A stretch of DNA of 64,000 bases from Sordariomycetes sp. S80-01Y (Eukaryota; Ascomycota; Sordariomycetes): contig JAXQJY010000033.1 in the NCBI GenBank assembly GCA_037042185.1, positions 3,410,001-3,474,000 of the forward strand. Reading direction: 5' to 3'. The position numbers were made by a program, and so were the translations under genes. Under the pieces are notes generated by a model, which saw only the letters and a list, made by a program, of their open reading frames with translations, ran no database searches and was not told the DNA's origin. This document shows positions 51,802-62,441 of the stretch, in pieces. Within the stretch, counting starts at the first letter, position 1; each line of letters starts with the position of its first letter.

Positions 51802-54231
51802 TCAAGACGCTTTGGCAACTCTGTCGAGCTTATAATTGCAGAGCCCGAACTCCGTGCCGCGTTTTGGTTTCCTGCTCAGGGTTGCCCAAGCGGTGGCGTA
51901 GGTCTGCTGTGCCCATGTCCTGAAGCTTGACTGAAGATGGTCTCCAGGCAATGCATTGAAAGCAATCCCGAGGCTGAGATGTCAGTAACATGTCGTGAAT
52001 GGTGATCGGGTGACTTACGTGAGAGCGTCCGGCTCCGACCCAGTGTAGGACGCCATCTTCAAGATCAAGGCCCGAATCTCCTTCTCATTGCCTTGCCCGG
52101 CGATAGCACCAATGTACGCATTGTACACCGACGCCGGAATGTCTAGATCCATAGCCTGGATCTTGTCCCAAATCTCGCGCGCCATGGTCCACCCGCCCGA
52201 TTTTCTCTCCAAAGTCCAGAACACTGCTTCTAGACTCGCATAAGACGGGCCTTCAGGGGACGTCTTGATTTGCTCCCAGAAATCCAATGCTTTCAGGGGC
52301 CGCTCGCACGCCGCGTGCGCCAGCATGAGAGCTGTGTTGAGCTTCGTGTTCTTTTGGATTCGCATGTCCATCTTCAACATGTTGTGAACCGTTTCCAGTC
52401 CCGACCTATCCGGATGATTCGCAAACCCCTCGAAGCATCGCACGTAGGCGTCTCGGTCCGGTTGAAATGCCTTGTTCGAGTGCTGCCGCATATGCCCGAA
52501 TATGTATGTCGACATATCTGGACGGTTGCGGTCGAAAAAGGCTTGTAATAGCTTGATGCGCTTGTCGAAACTCAAATCAAGGAAGAATTGGTGCAGCAAC
52601 TGGTACGCGCCCCATGCTCGTGATGTGCTGGTGTTGGAGTCGAGGACAAAGGAGACGAAAGCTGCCTGTACGATCTCGCGCTGTGTCTCGCTGTATAAGA
52701 AGGCGTGCACTGATAGAATGTCCATGACATCGAAGTGCTGGTCGTTTTCTAGGAAGCGCAGACATAATGCTGCGACCGTTTTGGGGGAGAGGTGTATCCG
52801 CTCTTCCTCCACTGTGTTAAGAACCTCGAGGATGTGTTTGAAGTCGGGTGGTCTCTGCGCGCACAGGAGCATAAGATACCGATTCACCGTGTGTCCGTAT
52901 GCCGTCCAAAGCTCTTTCGAAGCTTCGCTGGGTATTGATCCTGCAGAATGTAGCTCCTGATAGGCCTGGGTTGCTTCCCCCACAGAACCAGCCGTGGTTT
53001 GGATGCGCAAGAGTATCGCATACGTCTCAGCATCCGGGTTGACCCGATGCTCCGCAGCGACCCAGATGAGCTGTTCGGCTAATTTGGGGTCTTTCATGAT
53101 GACGGCGGCGCTGAGCATTGCGTTGAAGAAAGATGTGTTGGGCTTAAATCGTCCCTCCAAGCTCACCATGTTACCGAAGATAGCCTTGATCTCCTCCAAT
53201 GGCGTTCCGATGAGAACGAGGGAAGGGAGGATGACGCGCCAGTACCTCTTCATTGGTTCAGACTGGATGAGTTGAGCCAGGTGTCCGCGAAACCAACCAC
53301 CGGACCTTTTCCGGAAAGCGAGCTTGGCCATCTCCAAATATGTTTGAGGGCTTGGTTGGCCAGATTCAAGTGATTTTGTGAACCACTCCTCTGCCTCCGA
53401 GACTTGATTACGTTTGCCGTAAAAGACTGCAACAACTTCCCGGATACCGACCATATTGTCGATGCCCTGGCCATCCGCGAATTGAACCAGGTCCAGGAGA
53501 TCTGTCTCGAGACCCTCGTCGGCGAGCCCCCGCGCAACAGTCTCTAACACTCGGTGCTCCCCACTGGTGCACTCAACGTACGCGGGATCGCTCCAGTACT
53601 TCTTCAGCTCGTCCCGTGCCTCTCTTGCCGCGCCATAACGACACATTGCCTGGACAAGCTGCGCCCATTGTTTCGGCTCATCCTTCTGCTTGTGTCCAGC
53701 CACTTGCGCGCACCGCGCCCGGTGTACCGTCCTCGCCAACTTCAAATGCTCCGGGCTCCTCTCGATTGGGTCGATTTCCAGGAGTACCTGGTTGGCCATG
53801 GATAAGCTCTGTTTCGACAACTTGGTATCCTCTTGTTGATCAGGGTCGATCAAGTATTCTAACAGCCTCCTGCACTGTATAGCCTGAGTACTGTTCAGTG
53901 GCGCCGCGTTCCTCAACTTGCTCTGCATGAGGTTGTCCCAAGCAGCAATCAACTCTGGTCGTTCGGGGGGTCGCGTCTTGTCGAGCATGCGACTCCGCCA
54001 GACCATGATTTGCATCCATCCTGGCTCGTACTCGGGTTGCCGAACCTCGCGCGGAGGTTTCTTGAAGATCCCACCGAGGAACGTTCGACGTTGGCCGGCT
54101 CGACAGGTCACAGGAACATAGCGCAGTGATATAGGTCTTCGATGCGAGAACGTCGTGTATGAGGAGTGCGATCGGGTCGCGGCGCGGCGAACGACGAGAT
54201 GTCGAGCATGGCAGGCGAGATTGGCCCTCAT
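51802..54231 (-). CDS. Mitochondrial PPR-type protein, CIA84-like complex I assembly factor
   Basis: Two exons (52019-54231 and 51802-51973; 45-nt intron) encode 794 residues. The N-terminus is basic and hydroxylated (RHLVVRRAATRSHSSYTTFSHRR), a mitochondrial targeting sequence, followed by RRTFLGGIFKKPPREVRQPEYEPGW. I associate that segment with fungal complex I intermediate-associated protein 84. The rest is alpha-helical with PPR-like 35-residue periodicity (TYLEMAKLAF, TYAILLRIQTTAGSVGEATQAYQEL, SVYNAYIGAIAG). CIA84 assists assembly of the membrane arm of NADH dehydrogenase and leaves before completion. Assignment is from recalled motifs; a generic mitochondrial PPR protein is the alternative. 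Confidence 0.72.
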
Positions 54232-54875
54232 GGTGACGCTGAATAGGGGCCAAAAGACCTACTTATATTAGCATGTGCGGCTCAATCGGGCTGACGCAAG
54301 GAATCTTCATCTTACCAAAGCATATTTACAGCCCTAAAACGTCGAATTGAGCTTGTCGTTGGGTCAGCTCTCAGTCAGTCTTGGAATTTGACGTTCTTCA
54401 TGGATTGGAGCTCCGAAGTTAGCGCGTTCAAACTAGGCATGACTAAGCGCGTCCACCTACCCTGCGGCTGAATGGGATCGAAGTGGAATTGAGTCTTGAA
54501 TCAACGGACGGAGAATTGAGAAGCACAATTAACATATGTAAGATGTCTTATTTTCATTGAATATTTTCTAGAGTCAGAAGCTCAACGCACAATCTCTGGT
54601 GCAATCAAGAATATACTGCCTCAATGGCGACGAGCGCGTGGTGGCATGTGTTAGGATACCTCCTCTATACAATCCGTTCAGTCTAACACCATGTGAATCT
54701 TACCAATTACAATGTTGCGCGGTAACTAACCCCCCTTATCTGAACCATTGGTTCTTGGCCCCACTTTCCCTTCCTGGCGCAGACAGGAGGACGATTAGTA
54801 CTTTGTACATGGAATCATTCTGGTCCTGTCTTCTCTCCCTAACGTCAAACGAGTCGTTGATCCTACAGCTTAGCT
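54232..54875. promoter_or_regulatory. Divergent promoter of CIA84-like gene and Zn2Cys6 regulator
   Basis: 644 bp between two divergent starts. No coding sequence supported and no copy of the CCG-N-CGG element found further right. Confidence 0.4.
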
Positions 54876-56900
54876 ATGCCGCCTTTGGCGACTCGACGGG
54901 CGTCTAAAGCGTGCGATCTTTGCCGCAAGAACAAGACGCGTTGCCATGCGTCCGACAAGCCTGATGGCAGCTGCTTGCGGTGCGAGACACTCGCTCAATC
55001 GTGCTCGCTCAAGGTCACTACCTCAGCGTTTTCGCGTGAAAGCCGTCGTCACCGATTCGTATCACCAAATACCAGTCGTGGCTCCGAATTCGGGCAAGCA
55101 AGCCCGCGCGTCCGACGGGAGTCAGACGCTGTGAATCAAAGGTACACCAAGACGAATGATTCGGGCATGTGCGAGTTGCTGAGCTAAATCGTGCGAGCTA
55201 GACTCGAGCGACTGGAAAGAAGCGTGCAAGGGCTGGCTGACCGACTTGACGCGCGACTTGATGACATTCCTCAAGTCCAATCCCGCACGAGCCGCGAGAA
55301 ACTCCGTTCTCGAATGGACGGGAAGACTGTAGTTGCTGAGCGCAACCCTGCCCCGGTGCTTCTGTTGCGAGATGCTGCCGCAGACGCTGGCGTGGGATCG
55401 CCTCAGCCGACCAGCAATCAATTCGCCTCTCCACCAGATGTCATCACAACAGGGATCGTGTCCTTGTCAACGGCCCAGTCTTTGCTACGACTGTATGTCC
55501 TCCCGTGAAGAGCGGGCTGAGGTTCCTACGGTGTTGACGTATCCTAGTTTCCGAGTACATTACGGCCGATGGGTCAGGTTTCCAGAGCACGTTTCCGTGG
55601 AGGCTCTGCTAGGCGAAGTGAGAAAGTCACCGCTGCTTTTGTCGAGTGTTTGCTTGATCGCCGTGCGGCATACTACGCAAGACCTTGCAGATACTCTGGC
55701 GCCCACACTATTTGAGGAGGCAAAGTCCTTGCTCCAATCTTCATTGCTGACCGCTCCCCAACCTCTGCATTTCTTTCAAGCCGTACTGATCTTAAGTCTG
55801 TGGTCGACCACCATCGGACAGGTGCTTCTCAGTGTGGACAGCTGGCTATTGACGGGCTATGCTCTCCAACAAGCTCTAGCAAGCCCTGAATTCGAAGCTG
55901 TTCTTCAAACAGGATCAGAAACGCCTCGTGGGGAGCCCAAGACTGATACCTGGTGCATCTGGAACCACTTGTGCGTTGCTCATTTGCAGTCAGTTGACTT
56001 TTCCCTGTCCTTTGCACGTTTCGTTGACTCGACTACAGGTACTGTGTTGGAACAAGAAGACAATCGCTTCTAAACGAAACCCAGGTTGAAAGTTGCGTAT
56101 CGCTTTTGGAGCACAAAGACGTGGATAACTTCGAGGCGAGGATGGCAGCGGAGGTCAGACTATACTGGATCATGGTCAAGAAGTGCTCTGCTTCCGAAGT
56201 TGATCTGGTTGACACCGAGGCCGCTCTAGAGGATTGGTACCAGGAGTGGTCAGAACTGTTCAGTGAGTCCTCTGGAAACTCCCTTCCGGCGCTTGGGATT
56301 GCGACGGGCTGACATCTTTGACCAGGCCAGCCGCGATCTCAATTTCTCCAGATGGGCTACGAGTTTGCTTATCTCATCACCTATCACCAATCGGTCAAAT
56401 CTTTACGCGAGGTCATGGGAGGTTCAGTACTCGAGGAGATGATAAGGCGGTGCCAAAACATCATCAACCTCGTCGTTGGCACGGCAGATGGTCGCACCCC
56501 TCATCTGACGGACCACATTTACCTCGTTGTGGCGTTTGCTGCCCTTACACTTTGTCGACTCGTTCACACGTACGAGACGCAATTACAACAGGCAAAGCAC
56601 GACATCGTCGCGATGGACGCCATTGTCATCAAGCTGGTCAAGTGGCTGAAGACCATTGGCCTGCCGTGCCACGTTGCGCCCCTTCTTGGACGCATCGTGT
56701 TTGCGCAGTTCAAGAAATTGCGGCCGGATGGCAACACACAAGAGCTCTTTGGCTCCCATGATTCTCTCGATTTCGATGTCAGTGGCTCACTGGCTGACCT
56801 TGAAGATATGCCTACCGACCCAGCTTTCCCATACCCGGATCTCAACGGATCTGAACTGTTCTACATGGCTAATGGCCTGTCCTGGCCTCAATGGTGTTAG
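54876..56900 (+). CDS. Zn2Cys6 transcription factor (War1/PrtT-like architecture)
   Basis: Five exons (54876-55141, 55202-55492, 55548-55988, 56039-56262, 56326-56900; introns 60, 55, 50, 63 nt) encode 598 residues. The DNA-binding cluster KACDLCRKNKTRCHASDKPDGSCLRCETLAQSCSL lies at residues 11-45 or so. A coiled coil, LERLERSVQGLADRLDARL, is formed across the first junction. The middle region, LLRLFRVHYGRWVRFPE through a helical fungal-regulator domain (NHLCVAHLQYCVGTRRQS, MGYEFAYLITYHQS), runs to an acidic C-terminus. The cluster and layout recall the War1/PrtT group. Its neighbours, an arylsulfotransferase and a permease with clustered CCG-N-CGG sites between them, suggest it controls that pair; this is inference. 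Confidence 0.88.
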
Positions 56901-57017
56901 GTCGATGGAATCAGAAAGGGTGGCCTATAACCACTTGTATTCGTACAGGACTATAATATGACATTTCATAGACACCCTTGCAAGCTGAGGCTGCTATGTA
57001 ATAACATTCGTTCTGCG

Positions 57018-58184
57018 CTATAGTCGCGCGGCAGAGACTGCCGACTTTTCCTTTTCCTGCAACCATGGGATCTCATCCCGGGAATATCGATAAGCTCGGA
57101 AGAGGGCATTCGACTCGCCGGGGAAGAGCTTCGCAGTGACTTCATCAGGGTACTCTGAAAAGTGAGGATTGACATATTCCCAGCAAACATATCCATCCAT
57201 TGTGACCTCAAAGATGCGTCCGAAGGCGCTCTCGCAGATGAGCGTGTTTCCATTCGCGAGCCTCTGCGCGCTACCCATGAAGGGGGTGAAGAAGTTGTGC
57301 ATCTGGGCACGGTCGCGGTATTCCCACACGATCTTCTTTGTCGCGCGGTCAACCTCGATAGCTCGAGAGTAAGTAATGGACTCGCCGTTGCGGAAGGCTC
57401 CATTGTCGAAGATGAGGATGTTGCCATTCTCCAACTCAGTAGCGTTGTGTTGCTGCGCCAGTATCTCGGGTCCGATGCTCCAGACAATGTCTCCGCTTGA
57501 TCGCTCGATAATGACCACGGCGGATACTGATCGCATCGACGCGAGAATGTGTTTCCCGTCGCGCATAGGCAGCACAGAGTTGATCAAGGGATAGTGCTCC
57601 CGAGTGTAGTGGGCCTGGAGAGGGAACTTATCCCGAGGTAGTCTCTCGGAAACTTTCCATTGCCAAGTCAGGTTGCCCTTTTCGTCGACCTCGTTGATGG
57701 TGTCTGCGTAGGTGATGCCGTCTATTTCGGTGCCCGGAACTCCACCCTGAACAGCAGCCGAGTCCTCGGGTGACAGAGCTTCGAGGCCAGCGTAGAGAAT
57801 ACGGCCGTCACCGTAGTGATACTGATCGTGGTGTCCTAAGGAGTCTTTGAACTGGCGAACCACGTTTCCCTCGGAGTCCAGCTCGCTCATGACCCCCCCG
57901 CCGTACTTGTTGAAGAAGAGGAAGGGGAACGGGCCACCATTCTTTGTTTTCTGAGGTAATGCTGGTCGTAGGGTATTGACCGCGAGGTTTCCATTTGGAA
58001 GAATCCTGGCATGGCGGCCGATCCGACCAGGCAGTTTCCATGAGTGAACTTGATTCCCATCGATATCAACCAGATAGGCTGTGTCGCTGGTTAGAGGACA
58101 GAAGAGTGTAAAGCCACCGAAAGACCGTTGCTTGTCAACGCCGGTAAGGCCGACACCCCTTCTTTTGATGGCGTTTTGCTCCAT
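57018..58184 (-). CDS. Arylsulfotransferase (ASST)-family protein
   Basis: An intronless frame of 388 residues. The repeated GxVhxxW pattern (VDIDGNQVHSWKLPG, DEKGNLTWQWKV, RSSGDIVWSI, DRATKKIVWEY, TMDGYVCWEY) forms a beta-propeller. The motifs HARILPNGNL, GHHDQYHYGDGRILY and LANGNTLICES match the ASST family. Bacterial AssT enzymes transfer sulfate between phenolic esters in the periplasm through a histidine. Here there is no signal peptide, and the C-terminal tripeptide is ARL, a permitted PTS1, suggesting a peroxisomal location. Lack of introns and the mainly bacterial affinity of the family would fit old horizontal transfer. It diverges from the permease at 58743 and converges with the regulator. 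Sulfotransfer activity in fungal members is not something I can confirm. Confidence 0.8.
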   Translation of the reverse strand: MEQNAIKRRGVGLTGVDKQRSFGGFTLFCPLTSDTAYLVDIDGNQVHSWKLPGRIGRHARILPNGNLAVNTLRPALPQKTKNGGPFPFLFFNKYGGGVMSELDSEGNVVRQFKDSLGHHDQYHYGDGRILYAGLEALSPEDSAAVQGGVPGTEIDGITYADTINEVDEKGNLTWQWKVSERLPRDKFPLQAHYTREHYPLINSVLPMRDGKHILASMRSVSAVVIIERSSGDIVWSIGPEILAQQHNATELENGNILIFDNGAFRNGESITYSRAIEVDRATKKIVWEYRDRAQMHNFFTPFMGSAQRLANGNTLICESAFGRIFEVTMDGYVCWEYVNPHFSEYPDEVTAKLFPGESNALFRAYRYSRDEIPWLQEKEKSAVSAARL

Positions 58185-58742
58185 GGTATCTCTGTGAAGT
58201 ACTCGAACTTTGAGTGGAATGTGTGTCGGGGGTGAAATGAATGAGACTAGGCTCCTGAGGACGTGTTGTAGCCACTCACTTCGCCTTGTGTTCTTGCTGC
58301 GGGCGTTTTATCCCACGTCTTATATACCAAGCAAATCACGCGCCTGGGCCTTTTCAAAATATGAGCATTTTGACCTTATCTGGCGTTTGACCTGCGCTGC
58401 TGAAGAGACGCGACCTTCCCGATGGTTTCCCTTCGGCTTACCGGCGGCTTCTCCGGGAACGTACCGACGGCATACCGACGGCAACGTCACCCCCCCAGGT
58501 TCTGATACCATCGGGCGGGCGTCTTATAGGTGCACCAGTCGCAGCACGCCATTTGAATCCATTCTTATCTATCAGCCACCATGACCCTCGTTCACCCATA
58601 TCAGCGCCGACATGGCTTCGTTAAACGTTTGATGGAAGTATAAAGTCGAGGAAATGGCCCTGGAGGCCACAGGGCATAGAGCAGAAATCTATTCTGATGA
58701 ACCCTACGCCGTTCTTTAATTGAAACTCTTTGTTGATCATCA
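58185..58742. promoter_or_regulatory. Divergent promoter of ASST-like gene and MFS permease
   Basis: The 558-bp region between two divergent start codons contains the CCG-N-CGG cluster at 58440-58483, near its centre. No coding sequence is supported. Confidence 0.6.
58440..58483. promoter_or_regulatory. Three CCG-N-CGG everted repeats, candidate Zn2Cys6 operator
   Basis: ACCGGCGGC at 58440-58448 is followed by a perfect tandem 11-bp repeat TACCGACGGCA at 58462-58472 and 58473-58483. All three contain CCG, one base, CGG, the everted-triplet geometry recognised by dimeric Zn2Cys6 proteins. Spacing and clustering argue against chance. The nearest such regulator is encoded at 54876-56900. Confidence 0.6.
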
Positions 58743-60412
58743 ATGAATCGTCCCTCCGACACACAATCCAAGACGGCGCGGTCTGAGGTCTTGGACAATG
58801 GCGTCGACTTCAACCCCAATGGGGCCGCCGATGTCCCTGGCTACGACGTGACACTTCAAATCACCAAAGCTCAGGCGAGGGAGGCCAAGCTGAAAACAGA
58901 CCTGTGCATCATGCCTGTTATCATCCTGTGCTTCTGCTTCCTGCAGTTCGACCGCACCAATATCGGCAATGCGTTAACAGACACTCTGCGCGAAGATATA
59001 AGCTTGACAAATGCGGACATCAATCTGGCCCAGACGCTGTTCACCGTTGGATTCGTCATCACCGAACTCCCCTTCAATATGATCAGCAGATACATGGGCC
59101 CGGAACGGTTCCTGCCCATTACCATGTTCCTGTGGGGGATCGTTACCTGGTCCCAGGTGTTTTTGAAAAATGCTACTGGACTCTACGCGACCCGATTCCT
59201 CATCGGTGCTCTCGAAGGTGGTTACATTCCAGGTTTCGCGCTGTACATTTCGCGCTTTTACACGAATCAGGAGCTTGCCCTGCGTTATGCCATGTTCTGG
59301 GCGTCGAACAGCTTCGCTGGTGCTCTGGGAGGCCCGTTGTCCATTGGCCTTCTATCCCTTAGAGGAAGGGGTGATCTAAGCGGCTGGCAATGGCTGTTCC
59401 TTGTTGGTGAGTACACATTCCCTGGACTCATTGTACCCCACAGTCTGACCCGAAGCAGAAGGAATCTTGACTTGCTTCCTCGGTGTTTGTGCCTACTTAT
59501 ACCTTCCGCACAGTGCCGCCACGCCCAAGAAGTTTTTCGGCTCGTCCTTCTCGGTCTTCACCGACCGACAGGCTTCCATCATCGTCACGAGGGTCCTCCG
59601 CAACGACCCGTCAAAAGCCATACAGAACAAGGAAGTCGTCAAGGTGCGCCATGTCGTGGAGACTTTTGCGGATTGGCGCCTGTACGGCCACATCGTGGCA
59701 GCTCTGCTCTCCATGGTCATGATCTCGCCGATGAACACCTACGCGCCCTCAATGATCAAGTCACTTGGATTTACCGGCTTGCAGGCAAACGGCCTCAATT
59801 CCGTCGGGAGCATGTGCGCCCTTATCTGGTCGGTCTCCCTAGCATACAGCAGTGACAGACACGGCGAGCGTGGATTCCACATCGCCACCGGATACCTCTG
59901 GGGCGCCATTGGGCTTTTGTGGTTGGCTCTGGCCCCTAACAGCGCTGGTAAATGGACGCTTTATGGTGAGTACCCAACAACATATTCAAAGCTTTTGTGG
60001 ACGATTTCTGAAGCATCTTAGGTGGTGTCGTCTGGACCCAAATGGGGATGGGGTCTGCACAGGCAATCAGCGCCGCCTGGCTCGCCGCCAAGATGTACGA
60101 TCACAAGCGGCCAGTGGCTCTCGCAGCATATGTAATGAGCATTCAGCTTGCCAACTTCCCGGGAAATCAGCTTTTTAATGACCAAGGTAAGTGGCGTCCA
60201 TGGTCAGCACGGCGCTTGTAGACTGACTGGAACTTGCAGACGCGCCTCGGTACAGCCGGGGGCTTATCATCGCCGCGAGTTGCACCATCGCAGCGGCAGT
60301 CGTCATTCTCGTGTGGAAGCTGTTGTACCGTCTCTTTGATCATGGGGATGGAGGAGTGGAAGTCACCTTGAGTGTTGCTCACAACGAAGAGTCGCGTGAG
60401 ACCAAAGAGTAG
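58743..60412 (+). CDS. MFS permease, Dal5-type anion:cation symporter
   Basis: Four exons (58743-59406, 59459-59965, 60022-60186, 60240-60412; introns 52, 56, 53 nt) encode 502 residues. Twelve helices are discernible. Family sequences include LCFCFLQFDRTNIGNAL, TLFTVGFVITELPFNMISRYMGPERFLP, GALEGGYIPG, WQWLFLVEGILTC, MISPMNTYAPSMIKSLGFT and GVVWTQMGMGSAQAISAAWLA. It is a distinct paralog of the permease at 36108-37846. By family it imports an organic anion with protons. Sharing a promoter with the ASST-like gene suggests that its cargo is that enzyme's substrate or product, for example a sulfated or phenolic anion (inference). Confidence 0.88.
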
Positions 60413-60992: not shown

Positions 60993-62441
60993 ATGGCAGG
61001 TCTCGACACCCGCCGGCCGGGCTATAGCCGTCCCAATGAAGGCCGCTCCGGGCTCCCCCTTCTCTACAAAGCCGAAGAGGACGACTTGGACGACCTTAAC
61101 GACAACGACCGGGGCAGACCAAGCATGTCGGAGCGCCTCTACGATGGCGAACGCCAGTCCCGATCGGAAGATGCGCTGCGACCCGATGCCACGAACACCC
61201 AACGGCCTACCTTTAGCAGAAGGTCCACGATGCGCAGTCGCAGCCCAAGAGAGGTGGCCGCTGAGAACGTGGCCAAGAAGAAATATACCTATGCTGCCTT
61301 CTTTCTTTGTGTCAGTCTCGTGACTTTTTGCATACAGACGGAGTTGAGCGCGCATATTCAGCATGACCTGGGATGGTCCAAGGCGTACTGCATGATGTTC
61401 TTCACCCACGGTTCTTGGGTGGTTCTATGGCCGGCGCAACTGCTGGTGTTGAAGGCGCAGAAGATGAATGTTCCGTGGAATATCTTTATCAAGAAGCACC
61501 TCGAGTCGCTTAAGCTGACAGCCACAATGGTCGAGATGAGGACGTTGGACGTACACAGGCCGTCGATACAACACAACGCGCACCCCATTCGATACATGAT
61601 CAAATACACGGCAATTGTCACGACAGCGCTGACCGTGGCGGGATTGAGCTGGTATGTGGCCGTGGCTTTGACGACGCCGTCCGACCTGACAGCCATCTAC
61701 AACTGCTCGGCCTTCTTTGCCTACGTCTTCTCGGTCCCGATTCTGAAAGAGCCCCTGCGCCTGGACAAATCAATCGCCGTCTTGATTGCCATCGTGGGCG
61801 TCCTCGTCGTTGCATACGGCGATACCAAGGGTTCGGATTCTGGGGAGGAGGACACCACCGCTGGCAGTCGCTTTCTCGGCAATATCGTCATCGGCATTGG
61901 CTCTGTGCTCTATGGTCTCTACGAAGTCATGTACAAGCGCTTCGCCTGCCCTCCCGAAGGCGTCTCTCCCGGGCGAGGCGTCGTCTTCGCCAACACTTTT
62001 GGCGCTCTCATCGGCGTCTTCACCCTTTCAGTCCTGTGGATCCCGCTCCCCATTCTTCACTGGCTCAACATCGAACGCTTTGAACTACCCGACGCCTCGA
62101 CCGGCTGGCTCGTTCTCTGCGCCGTCCTGGCCAACGCCACCTTCAGCGGCTCATTCCTTGTCCTGATCTCACTCACCTCGCCTGTCCTGTCATCCGTCGC
62201 CGCCTTGCTGACCATCTTCCTCGTCGCTATCGTCGATTGGTTCATCACTGGCGAGCCACTGAGCTGGGCAGCTATCTTCGGCGGGACCATGATCATCGTG
62301 GCGTTTGTAGGCCTGAGCTGGAGCACTTACCGGGAGATGAAGGAGCACGAGGCGCAGAAGATGGAGATCGATCTGTCGGACAGCGACCTGGATGTTGAGG
62401 AGGCCGAGTTGAGCAGCAACGATGGGCAGGGTAGATTCTAG
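60993..62441 (+). CDS. SLC35F-type drug/metabolite transporter (EamA fold)
   Basis: An intronless frame of 482 residues. A disordered acidic N-terminus of about 85 residues precedes ten predicted helices: YTYAAFFLCVSLVTFCIQTEL, YCMMFFTHGSWVVLW, IVTTALTVAGLSWYVAVAL, TAIYNCSAFFAYVFS, SIAVLIAIVGVLVVAYGD, LGNIVIGIGSVLYGLYEVMYK, ANTFGALIGVFTLSVL, GWLVLCAVLANATFSGSFLVL, SSVAALLTIFLVAIVDWF and IFGGTMIIVAFVGLSW. YNCSAFFAYVFSVPILKEPL is a hallmark of the SLC35F and yeast YML018C/Thi74 group. These sit in vacuolar, Golgi or mitochondrial membranes and their substrates are poorly known. The acidic C-terminal tail may be regulatory. Confidence 0.87.
   Translation: MAGLDTRRPGYSRPNEGRSGLPLLYKAEEDDLDDLNDNDRGRPSMSERLYDGERQSRSEDALRPDATNTQRPTFSRRSTMRSRSPREVAAENVAKKKYTYAAFFLCVSLVTFCIQTELSAHIQHDLGWSKAYCMMFFTHGSWVVLWPAQLLVLKAQKMNVPWNIFIKKHLESLKLTATMVEMRTLDVHRPSIQHNAHPIRYMIKYTAIVTTALTVAGLSWYVAVALTTPSDLTAIYNCSAFFAYVFSVPILKEPLRLDKSIAVLIAIVGVLVVAYGDTKGSDSGEEDTTAGSRFLGNIVIGIGSVLYGLYEVMYKRFACPPEGVSPGRGVVFANTFGALIGVFTLSVLWIPLPILHWLNIERFELPDASTGWLVLCAVLANATFSGSFLVLISLTSPVLSSVAALLTIFLVAIVDWFITGEPLSWAAIFGGTMIIVAFVGLSWSTYREMKEHEAQKMEIDLSDSDLDVEEAELSSNDGQGRF

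Follow-up and report, generated by a model that had tools for sequence, protein, structure and literature searches.

A cluster of three adjacent genes in the ascomycete Sordariomycetes sp. S80-01Y raises the question of whether a transcriptional regulator, a permease, and a relative of bacterial arylsulfotransferases (ASSTs) serve a single compound, and whether that compound carries a sulfo group. The genes lie within a window of 64,000 nucleotides (assembly GCA_037042185.1, contig JAXQJY010000033.1, positions 3,410,001 to 3,474,000, forward strand) and encode a Zn2Cys6 regulator of 592 amino acids (aa) (54876-56900, plus strand), an ASST-like beta-propeller protein of 388 aa (58184-57018, minus strand), and a permease of the major facilitator superfamily (MFS) with 502 aa (58743-60412, plus strand). 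An initial annotation had described them as a sulfo-aromatic utilization unit. Rebuilt gene models place the three contiguous genes at exactly the positions that it gave, and the ASST-like gene and the permease gene do diverge from one common promoter region of 558 bp (58185-58742), as it had proposed. Comparison with bacterial relatives supports well a combination of regulator, importer, and enzyme devoted to one imported anion, and the three fungal genes would cooperate in the same manner.

The strongest evidence for such a unit lies outside the fungus. The query for a search of bacterial and archaeal species genomes was an alignment that combined the fungal protein with ten plasmid relatives. 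This search found 498 relatives; the same scan with the fungal protein alone as the query found no relative. The best 80 of the 498, all bacterial by title, were combined with 10 plasmid loci (L011 to L020) into a set of 90 bacterial loci. Neighboring genes were predicted with a codon-usage caller that had annotated plasmid genes as its training set and were then clustered, and the cluster representatives were named by Pfam and NCBIfam. A same-strand importer component directly adjoins the enzyme gene in 89 of the 90 loci, with none at L090. The importers are SsuA/NMT1-type ATP-binding cassette (ABC) systems in 48 loci, xanthine-permease-like NCS2 proteins in 29, TctC receptors in 5, NMT1-type binding proteins in 4, amino acid permeases in 2, and an ABC system plus a TctC receptor in 1. 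An opposite-strand upstream regulator was scored in 78 of the 90 loci and belongs to the LysR (32 loci), XRE-cupin (24 loci), or LacI (22 loci) type. In the LysR and LacI loci and in the two closest relatives of the fungal protein, this regulator gene is located next to the enzyme gene; in the Streptomyces type, it precedes the co-directional ABC genes. The regulator counts are likely lower bounds because the caller misses genes, such as an annotated opposite-strand "substrate-binding domain" gene beside the L018 enzyme, and two genes that seem adjacent might have a missed one between them. The 90 loci are not independent, with many from Streptomyces, Burkholderia, and Variovorax. Such arrangements are present in eight annotated plasmid records, and two further records are unannotated there.

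Over 55 labeled rows of the tree, the importer type requires no fewer than nine changes, one of which is the fungal change; the regulator type requires three, the minimum possible with four types. The enzyme is the constant member of these loci, and the importer is replaceable. Because unrelated importers replace each other while the pairing persists, the enzyme probably acts on the imported compound, which is the main argument for the unit. The clade includes members from Actinomycetota and Pseudomonadota and one cyanobacterial bin. Pairing with an NCS2 protein is found in the two nearest relatives of the fungal protein, in each of the 8 loci from enterobacteria and Pantoea, and in each of the 19 Burkholderia and Paraburkholderia loci examined.

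In the fungal promoter, three copies of TACCGRCGG were identified as candidate Zn2Cys6 sites (58439-58447, 58462-58470, and 58473-58481, plus strand), and these are the only copies in the window, where 0.48 were expected; none of 100 shuffles reached 3. Dimers of Zn2Cys6 proteins bind sites of the CCG-N-CGG kind, and the repeat is of interest because each copy contains one; CCGNCGG alone showed no enrichment in the window, with 23 copies against 19.0 expected. The host genome (30.9 Mb in 16 contigs) contains a single triple ACCGRCGG when spacers of at most 30 bases are allowed, and a reversed-pattern control gave 0, although this uniqueness is partly built in, the pattern having been read off this promoter. 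The cluster-borne regulator may bind this repeat. Together with the importers at 89 and the regulators at 78 of the 90 bacterial loci, the three CCG-N-CGG copies place the uptake-enzyme-regulator part of the initial annotation on firmer ground than the sequence alone could have offered its reader. Three HGATAR words were also present on the minus strand of the promoter.

The ASST-like protein carries the propeller profile of the family, with 63.2 bits for PF05935 (cutoff, 24.2) and 60.3 bits for PF14269 (cutoff, 27). The two best fold matches of its AlphaFold2 model (mean predicted local distance difference test score [pLDDT], 90.2; predicted template modeling score [pTM], 0.90) were the Cpz4 entries 9kf4 (E value, 1.3e-18) and 9kf6 (4.8e-18), with the third-best match far behind (1.9e-11). 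To compare active sites, an alignment of 84 rows was used, which comprised 79 clade rows (the window protein and 78 bacterial loci, 12 of the 90 having been left out) and five outgroup rows from three haloarchaea, Paenibacillus, and Acidisoma. The profile of these rows matched Cpz4 (3.3e-20) and Escherichia coli AssT (9.8e-16) among PDB sequences. The active-site residues of AssT, including the transiently sulfated His436, have been listed (PMC10932419 and PMC13426309), and PMC13426309 adds Thr501. In the profile alignment, H252, N358, R374, and H436 of AssT correspond to H119, N202, R218, and H246 of the fungal protein, each of which is invariant in 84 of 84 rows. The clade keeps four of the five ASST active-site residues compared, the sulfo-accepting His and its partners among them.

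The fungal protein starts near the start of its bacterial relatives, with 11 residues before G12, which is inside the range of the bacterial rows. It extends 13 residues past L375; the bacterial clade rows have 0 to 7 residues there in 77 of 78 cases and 12 in the remaining one, L062. This C-terminal tail (57018-57056, minus strand) ends in Ala-Arg-Leu, which we take to resemble a type 1 peroxisomal targeting signal (PTS1); such an end was found in 1 of the 84 rows, the fungal protein. It is a lead for a location that is perhaps peroxisomal.

The relatives of the enzyme indicate where the gene may have come from. A tblastn search retrieved 49 plasmid records, 25 of them with at least 80% coverage, and the twelve best bacterial plasmid matches showed identities of 39.8% to 43.2%. 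The nearest of the aligned rows are those of Tsukamurella sputi (55% identity) and Aeromicrobium (54%), and the other clade rows share 40% to 49%. The host genome contains 15 PF14269 matches at 12 places, the window gene included, so that the family is sizeable in this fungus. A direct match to the ASST-like protein was found at only one other place in the host, with 31% identity over residues 151 to 335, whereas the bacterial clade rows are 40% to 55% identical. A recent duplication of a host ASST gene was ruled out by this partial match of 31% against the 54% to 55% of the nearest bacterial rows. An H-x-N-S/A motif like that of AssT His356, located by motif search and not by alignment, is present in seven of the eight host PF14269 loci fetched (L003 gave no call), and the window gene has Y-P-L-I-N at the corresponding motif. 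In a tree of 61 rows (23 of the 84 left out), the fungal protein grouped with Tsukamurella and Aeromicrobium inside the bacteria with support of 100/98. Contamination is unlikely: the contig that carries the gene measures at least 3.47 Mb, the genes next to it have introns, and its G+C content at third codon positions (0.64) falls within the range of four neighbors (0.58 to 0.74). These comparisons suggest that the ASST-like gene was likely acquired from bacteria.

The triad may be best explained as a cassette that serves the catabolism or scavenging of a single small organic anion taken up by the cell. Import of the compound would be the task of the permease. Inside the cell, in the cytosol or possibly in the peroxisome, the propeller would act on the compound as a sulfuryl transferase that needs no cofactor: its H246 would accept a sulfo group and hand it on to water or to another acceptor. 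The Zn2Cys6 protein would turn on the divergent pair through the CCG-N-CGG triplet. The enzyme gene, probably of bacterial source, would now have a fungal transporter gene and a fungal regulator gene as neighbors, in an arrangement resembling the bacterial one. To this explanation as a whole, intracellular desulfation included, we give about an even chance. The cooperation of the three fungal genes, the sulfuryl transfer and its direction, the sulfur in the compound, the desulfation itself, and the regulator's contact with the repeat are the steps that we infer.

Evidence for sulfur comes from the retained sulfo-accepting site and, in some lineages, from the surroundings of the bacterial genes. 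Genes of organosulfur kinds, including flavin mononucleotide (FMN)-dependent monooxygenases, an FMN reductase, an SfnC-like dehydrogenase, and a sulfatase, were found near 16 of the 90 loci, with several Streptomyces, Variovorax, and Acidovorax loci among them; no organosulfur seed match was found near the other 74. The organosulfur seeds themselves were drawn from these neighborhoods (L012, L016, and L018; other seeds came from L017, L020, and L021, of which L021 is not one of the 90), and when L012, L016, and L018 were left out, the count was 13 of 87. A luciferase-like monooxygenase gene is present in 7 of the 22 loci assigned here to Streptomyces or its near relatives (6 of 21 when the seed locus L012 is left out), the strains not being independent. 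Six Streptomyces genomes of 7.8 to 8.9 Mb each contain at least 23 to 35 luciferase-like monooxygenase matches, which by arithmetic gives a chance expectation of about 0.06 per 17 kb. On the Streptomyces plasmid of L012 (10315-19101), the enzyme gene is followed by amino acid ABC transporter genes, a GNAT gene, several genes of the FMN-dependent monooxygenase type, and a sulfatase-like gene, and in gene content this block looks like an organosulfur salvage block.

The permease family is compatible with a sulfur-containing anion. In yeast, the MFS protein Soa1, one of a large family of organic-anion transporters in fungi, transports sulfonates, choline sulfate, and inorganic sulfur, and AstA carries sulfate (PMC5303821); SOA1 is also listed among the Dal5-family genes in a paper on Candida parapsilosis (PMC11502921). 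A sulfated aromatic is a plausible candidate for the imported compound. The "sulfo-aromatic" half of the earlier description is nevertheless not established, given the absence of His356, the mixed importers in bacteria, and the organosulfur neighbors at 16 of the 90 loci.

Several results weigh against a sulfur-releasing cassette built around a bacterial gene. No organosulfur seed match was found near 27 of the 29 NCS2-type loci, the two closest relatives included, and xanthine-permease-like NCS2 proteins are not known to carry sulfate esters. Within the 558-bp promoter, no MetR/Cys3-type site is present, against 2 such sites in the whole window with 0.95 expected; global sulfur control through this type of site was rejected on that ground. 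The fifth active-site residue, His356 of AssT, corresponds to L200 of the fungal protein and is Met (46), Leu (29), Phe (3), or Val (1) in the 79 clade rows, whereas it is His in all five outgroup rows. Three residues earlier, position 197 is His in 79 of 79 clade rows and Asp in 5 of 5 outgroup rows, so that the outgroup motif D-W/Y-x-H-x-N reads H-W/Y-P-(mostly M or L)-x-N in the clade. On this alignment, the active site of the clade would be rearranged, with His356 lost and His197 gained. As for the bacterial source, an approximately unbiased (AU) test did not reject a topology in which the fungal protein stands outside a single bacterial clade (P = 0.064), and the fungal branch is long (1.03). 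After removal of the five outgroup rows and of Tsukamurella and Aeromicrobium, the fungal protein moved beside Streptomyces on a branch of 2.07. A single fungal sequence was examined, and long branches meet in the tree.

Some of these observations would suit the same cassette with another chemistry, in which the rebuilt site, with His356 lost and His197 invariant, has given up sulfuryl transfer and instead opens or hydrolyzes a sulfur-free heterocyclic or carboxylate anion that serves as a carbon or nitrogen source. The change of motif between the five outgroup rows and the clade would be in line with this, as would the xanthine-permease-like NCS2 proteins beside the two nearest relatives and the 8 enterobacterial/Pantoea and 19 Burkholderia/Paraburkholderia genes, the TctC receptors and amino acid permeases among the other importers, and the 74 of 90 loci lacking an organosulfur seed match. 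However, the sulfo-accepting His and its three partners are invariant in all 84 rows, and organosulfur-kind genes do lie near several Streptomyces, Variovorax, and Acidovorax loci. A sulfur-free substrate is possible on this balance, if doubtful.

It is unlikely that the gene simply landed between unrelated genes in the fungus. The comparison rests on one fungal genome, and permeases of this kind are common neighbors there, with 85 other matching pieces in the host genome, but the arrangement of regulator, importer, and enzyme repeats the bacterial one, and the common divergent promoter carries the CCG-N-CGG triplet, whose pattern, itself derived from this promoter, has a single occurrence in the genome. 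Detoxification, with the enzyme sulfating imported or internal phenols from a sulfated donor in the way that characterized ASSTs do in vitro by moving sulfuryl groups between phenols (PMC13426309 and PMC11576661), is highly improbable, since the pairing is with importer families and one active-site His of those enzymes is absent.

The cassette for an imported anion can be taken one step further. We tentatively suggest that importer-coupled, intracellular relatives of ASSTs form a clade whose rearranged active site performs a distinct reaction on an imported anion, and that a fungus took up one member and rebuilt the cassette with its own regulator and permease and perhaps directs the enzyme to peroxisomes. 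This wider proposal has a less than even chance of holding in full.

Among known systems, the closest comparisons are AssT, Cpz4, and the fungal family PF14269. AssT of E. coli CFT073 (PDB 3ELQ, PF05935) shares the propeller profile, and the equivalents of its H252, N358, R374, and sulfated H436 are invariant in the clade. AssT is an exported enzyme linked to Dsb genes, whereas the clade studied here is tied to importers. Its chain has 571 residues against 388 in the fungal protein, which leaves no room for the N-terminal beta-sandwich of AssT, shows no signal sequence by eye, and lacks an H356 equivalent. Cpz4 of Streptomyces (PDB 9kf4 and 9kf6) is the best match among solved structures in both structure and sequence, but it keeps the His of its H-I-N-S motif and is 20% identical in the structural alignment. 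Cpz4 takes part in the biosynthesis of the antibiotic caprazamycin (PMC13426309). The fungal protein exceeds the cutoff of Arylsulfotran_2 (PF14269), as noted above, yet it differs from the host members in its direct match (31%, partial) at one other place and in the H-x-N motif of seven of the eight loci. An MFS importer followed by an intracellular sulfur-releasing step is also a feature of fungal alternative sulfur uptake, as with the Soa1 and AstA permeases, arylsulfatases, and the sulfonate dioxygenase Jlp1 (PMC5303821, PMC11502921, and PMC5857272). In contrast to the fungal cluster, the named yeast genes are under Met4 (PMC11502921) and not under a cluster-borne Zn2Cys6 protein. For an "aryl sulfatase II" of Aspergillus oryzae with transferase activity, the resemblance lies in a reported fungal sulfotransferase activity that is independent of 3'-phosphoadenosine-5'-phosphosulfate (PAPS) (PMC13426309).

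Among the papers listed in searches of the open full-text literature on ASST-type enzymes, which mostly excludes subscription journals, no title or abstract opening describes the clade or the cassette. A 2018 review of alternative sulfur sources in fungi presents three families of sulfate-ester enzymes, and the word "sulfotransferase" is absent from its main text (PMC5857272). If the proposal is true, the cassette would represent a fungal route for the utilization of anions or sulfate esters outside these three families, likely transferred from bacteria. According to a 2026 review, the physiological role of bacterial aryl sulfotransferases is poorly understood because their natural substrates are unknown (PMC13426309). 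Because the enzyme gene lies almost always beside an importer gene and usually near a regulator gene in the loci examined, the clade may be usable as a substrate screen, in which an inducer of the regulator that also needs the importer would be a candidate substrate of the enzyme.

The gene models were obtained by splicing, with splice sites predicted from GT/AG signals and the reading frame. The regulator gene has five exons (54876-55141, 55202-55492, 55548-55970, 56039-56262, and 56326-56900), and the permease gene has four (58743-59406, 59459-59965, 60022-60186, and 60240-60412). The ASST-like gene is a single exon, convergent with the regulator gene and separated from it by 117 bp. Near its N terminus, the regulator contains the six-cysteine cluster with the spacing CX2CX6CX9CX2CX6C, and its PF00172 match (22.9 bits) narrowly passes the cutoff of 21. 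The permease matches MFS_1 with 129.3 bits, and its best NCBIfam model is TIGR00893 (151.7 bits, below the model cutoff of 395). By these matches it resembles anion:cation symporters, and the label "Dal5-type" given to it earlier is a fair, if provisional, description. The triad is flanked on the left by a minus-strand frame of 747 codons (52015-54258) and on the right by an EamA-type transporter gene (about 60993-62441), both of which look unrelated to it.

Further observations concern the surroundings of the bacterial and archaeal relatives. A relative on a Paenibacillus plasmid (L024, 6383-11025), which falls outside the clade and retains His356, has a MarR gene on one side and ABC transporter genes on the other, and because this nonclade relative also sits with transporter genes, the link to importers may predate the clade. 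No listed importer adjoins the haloarchaeal plasmid relatives (L021 to L023; 31% to 33% identity by tblastn); they represent a separate context near aminotransferase genes, with sulfatase genes near two of the three. Upstream of the LysR gene, a gamma-glutamyltranspeptidase gene adjoins this regulator gene in 11 Burkholderia loci, and a porin gene follows the NCS2 gene in 8 Paraburkholderia loci; L014, L020, L064, and L077 are among the loci concerned. A blastn search of E. coli complete genomes with the Kluyvera gene gave no match. The gene is also carried by three phage-collection records, one of which is titled as a Salmonella strain.

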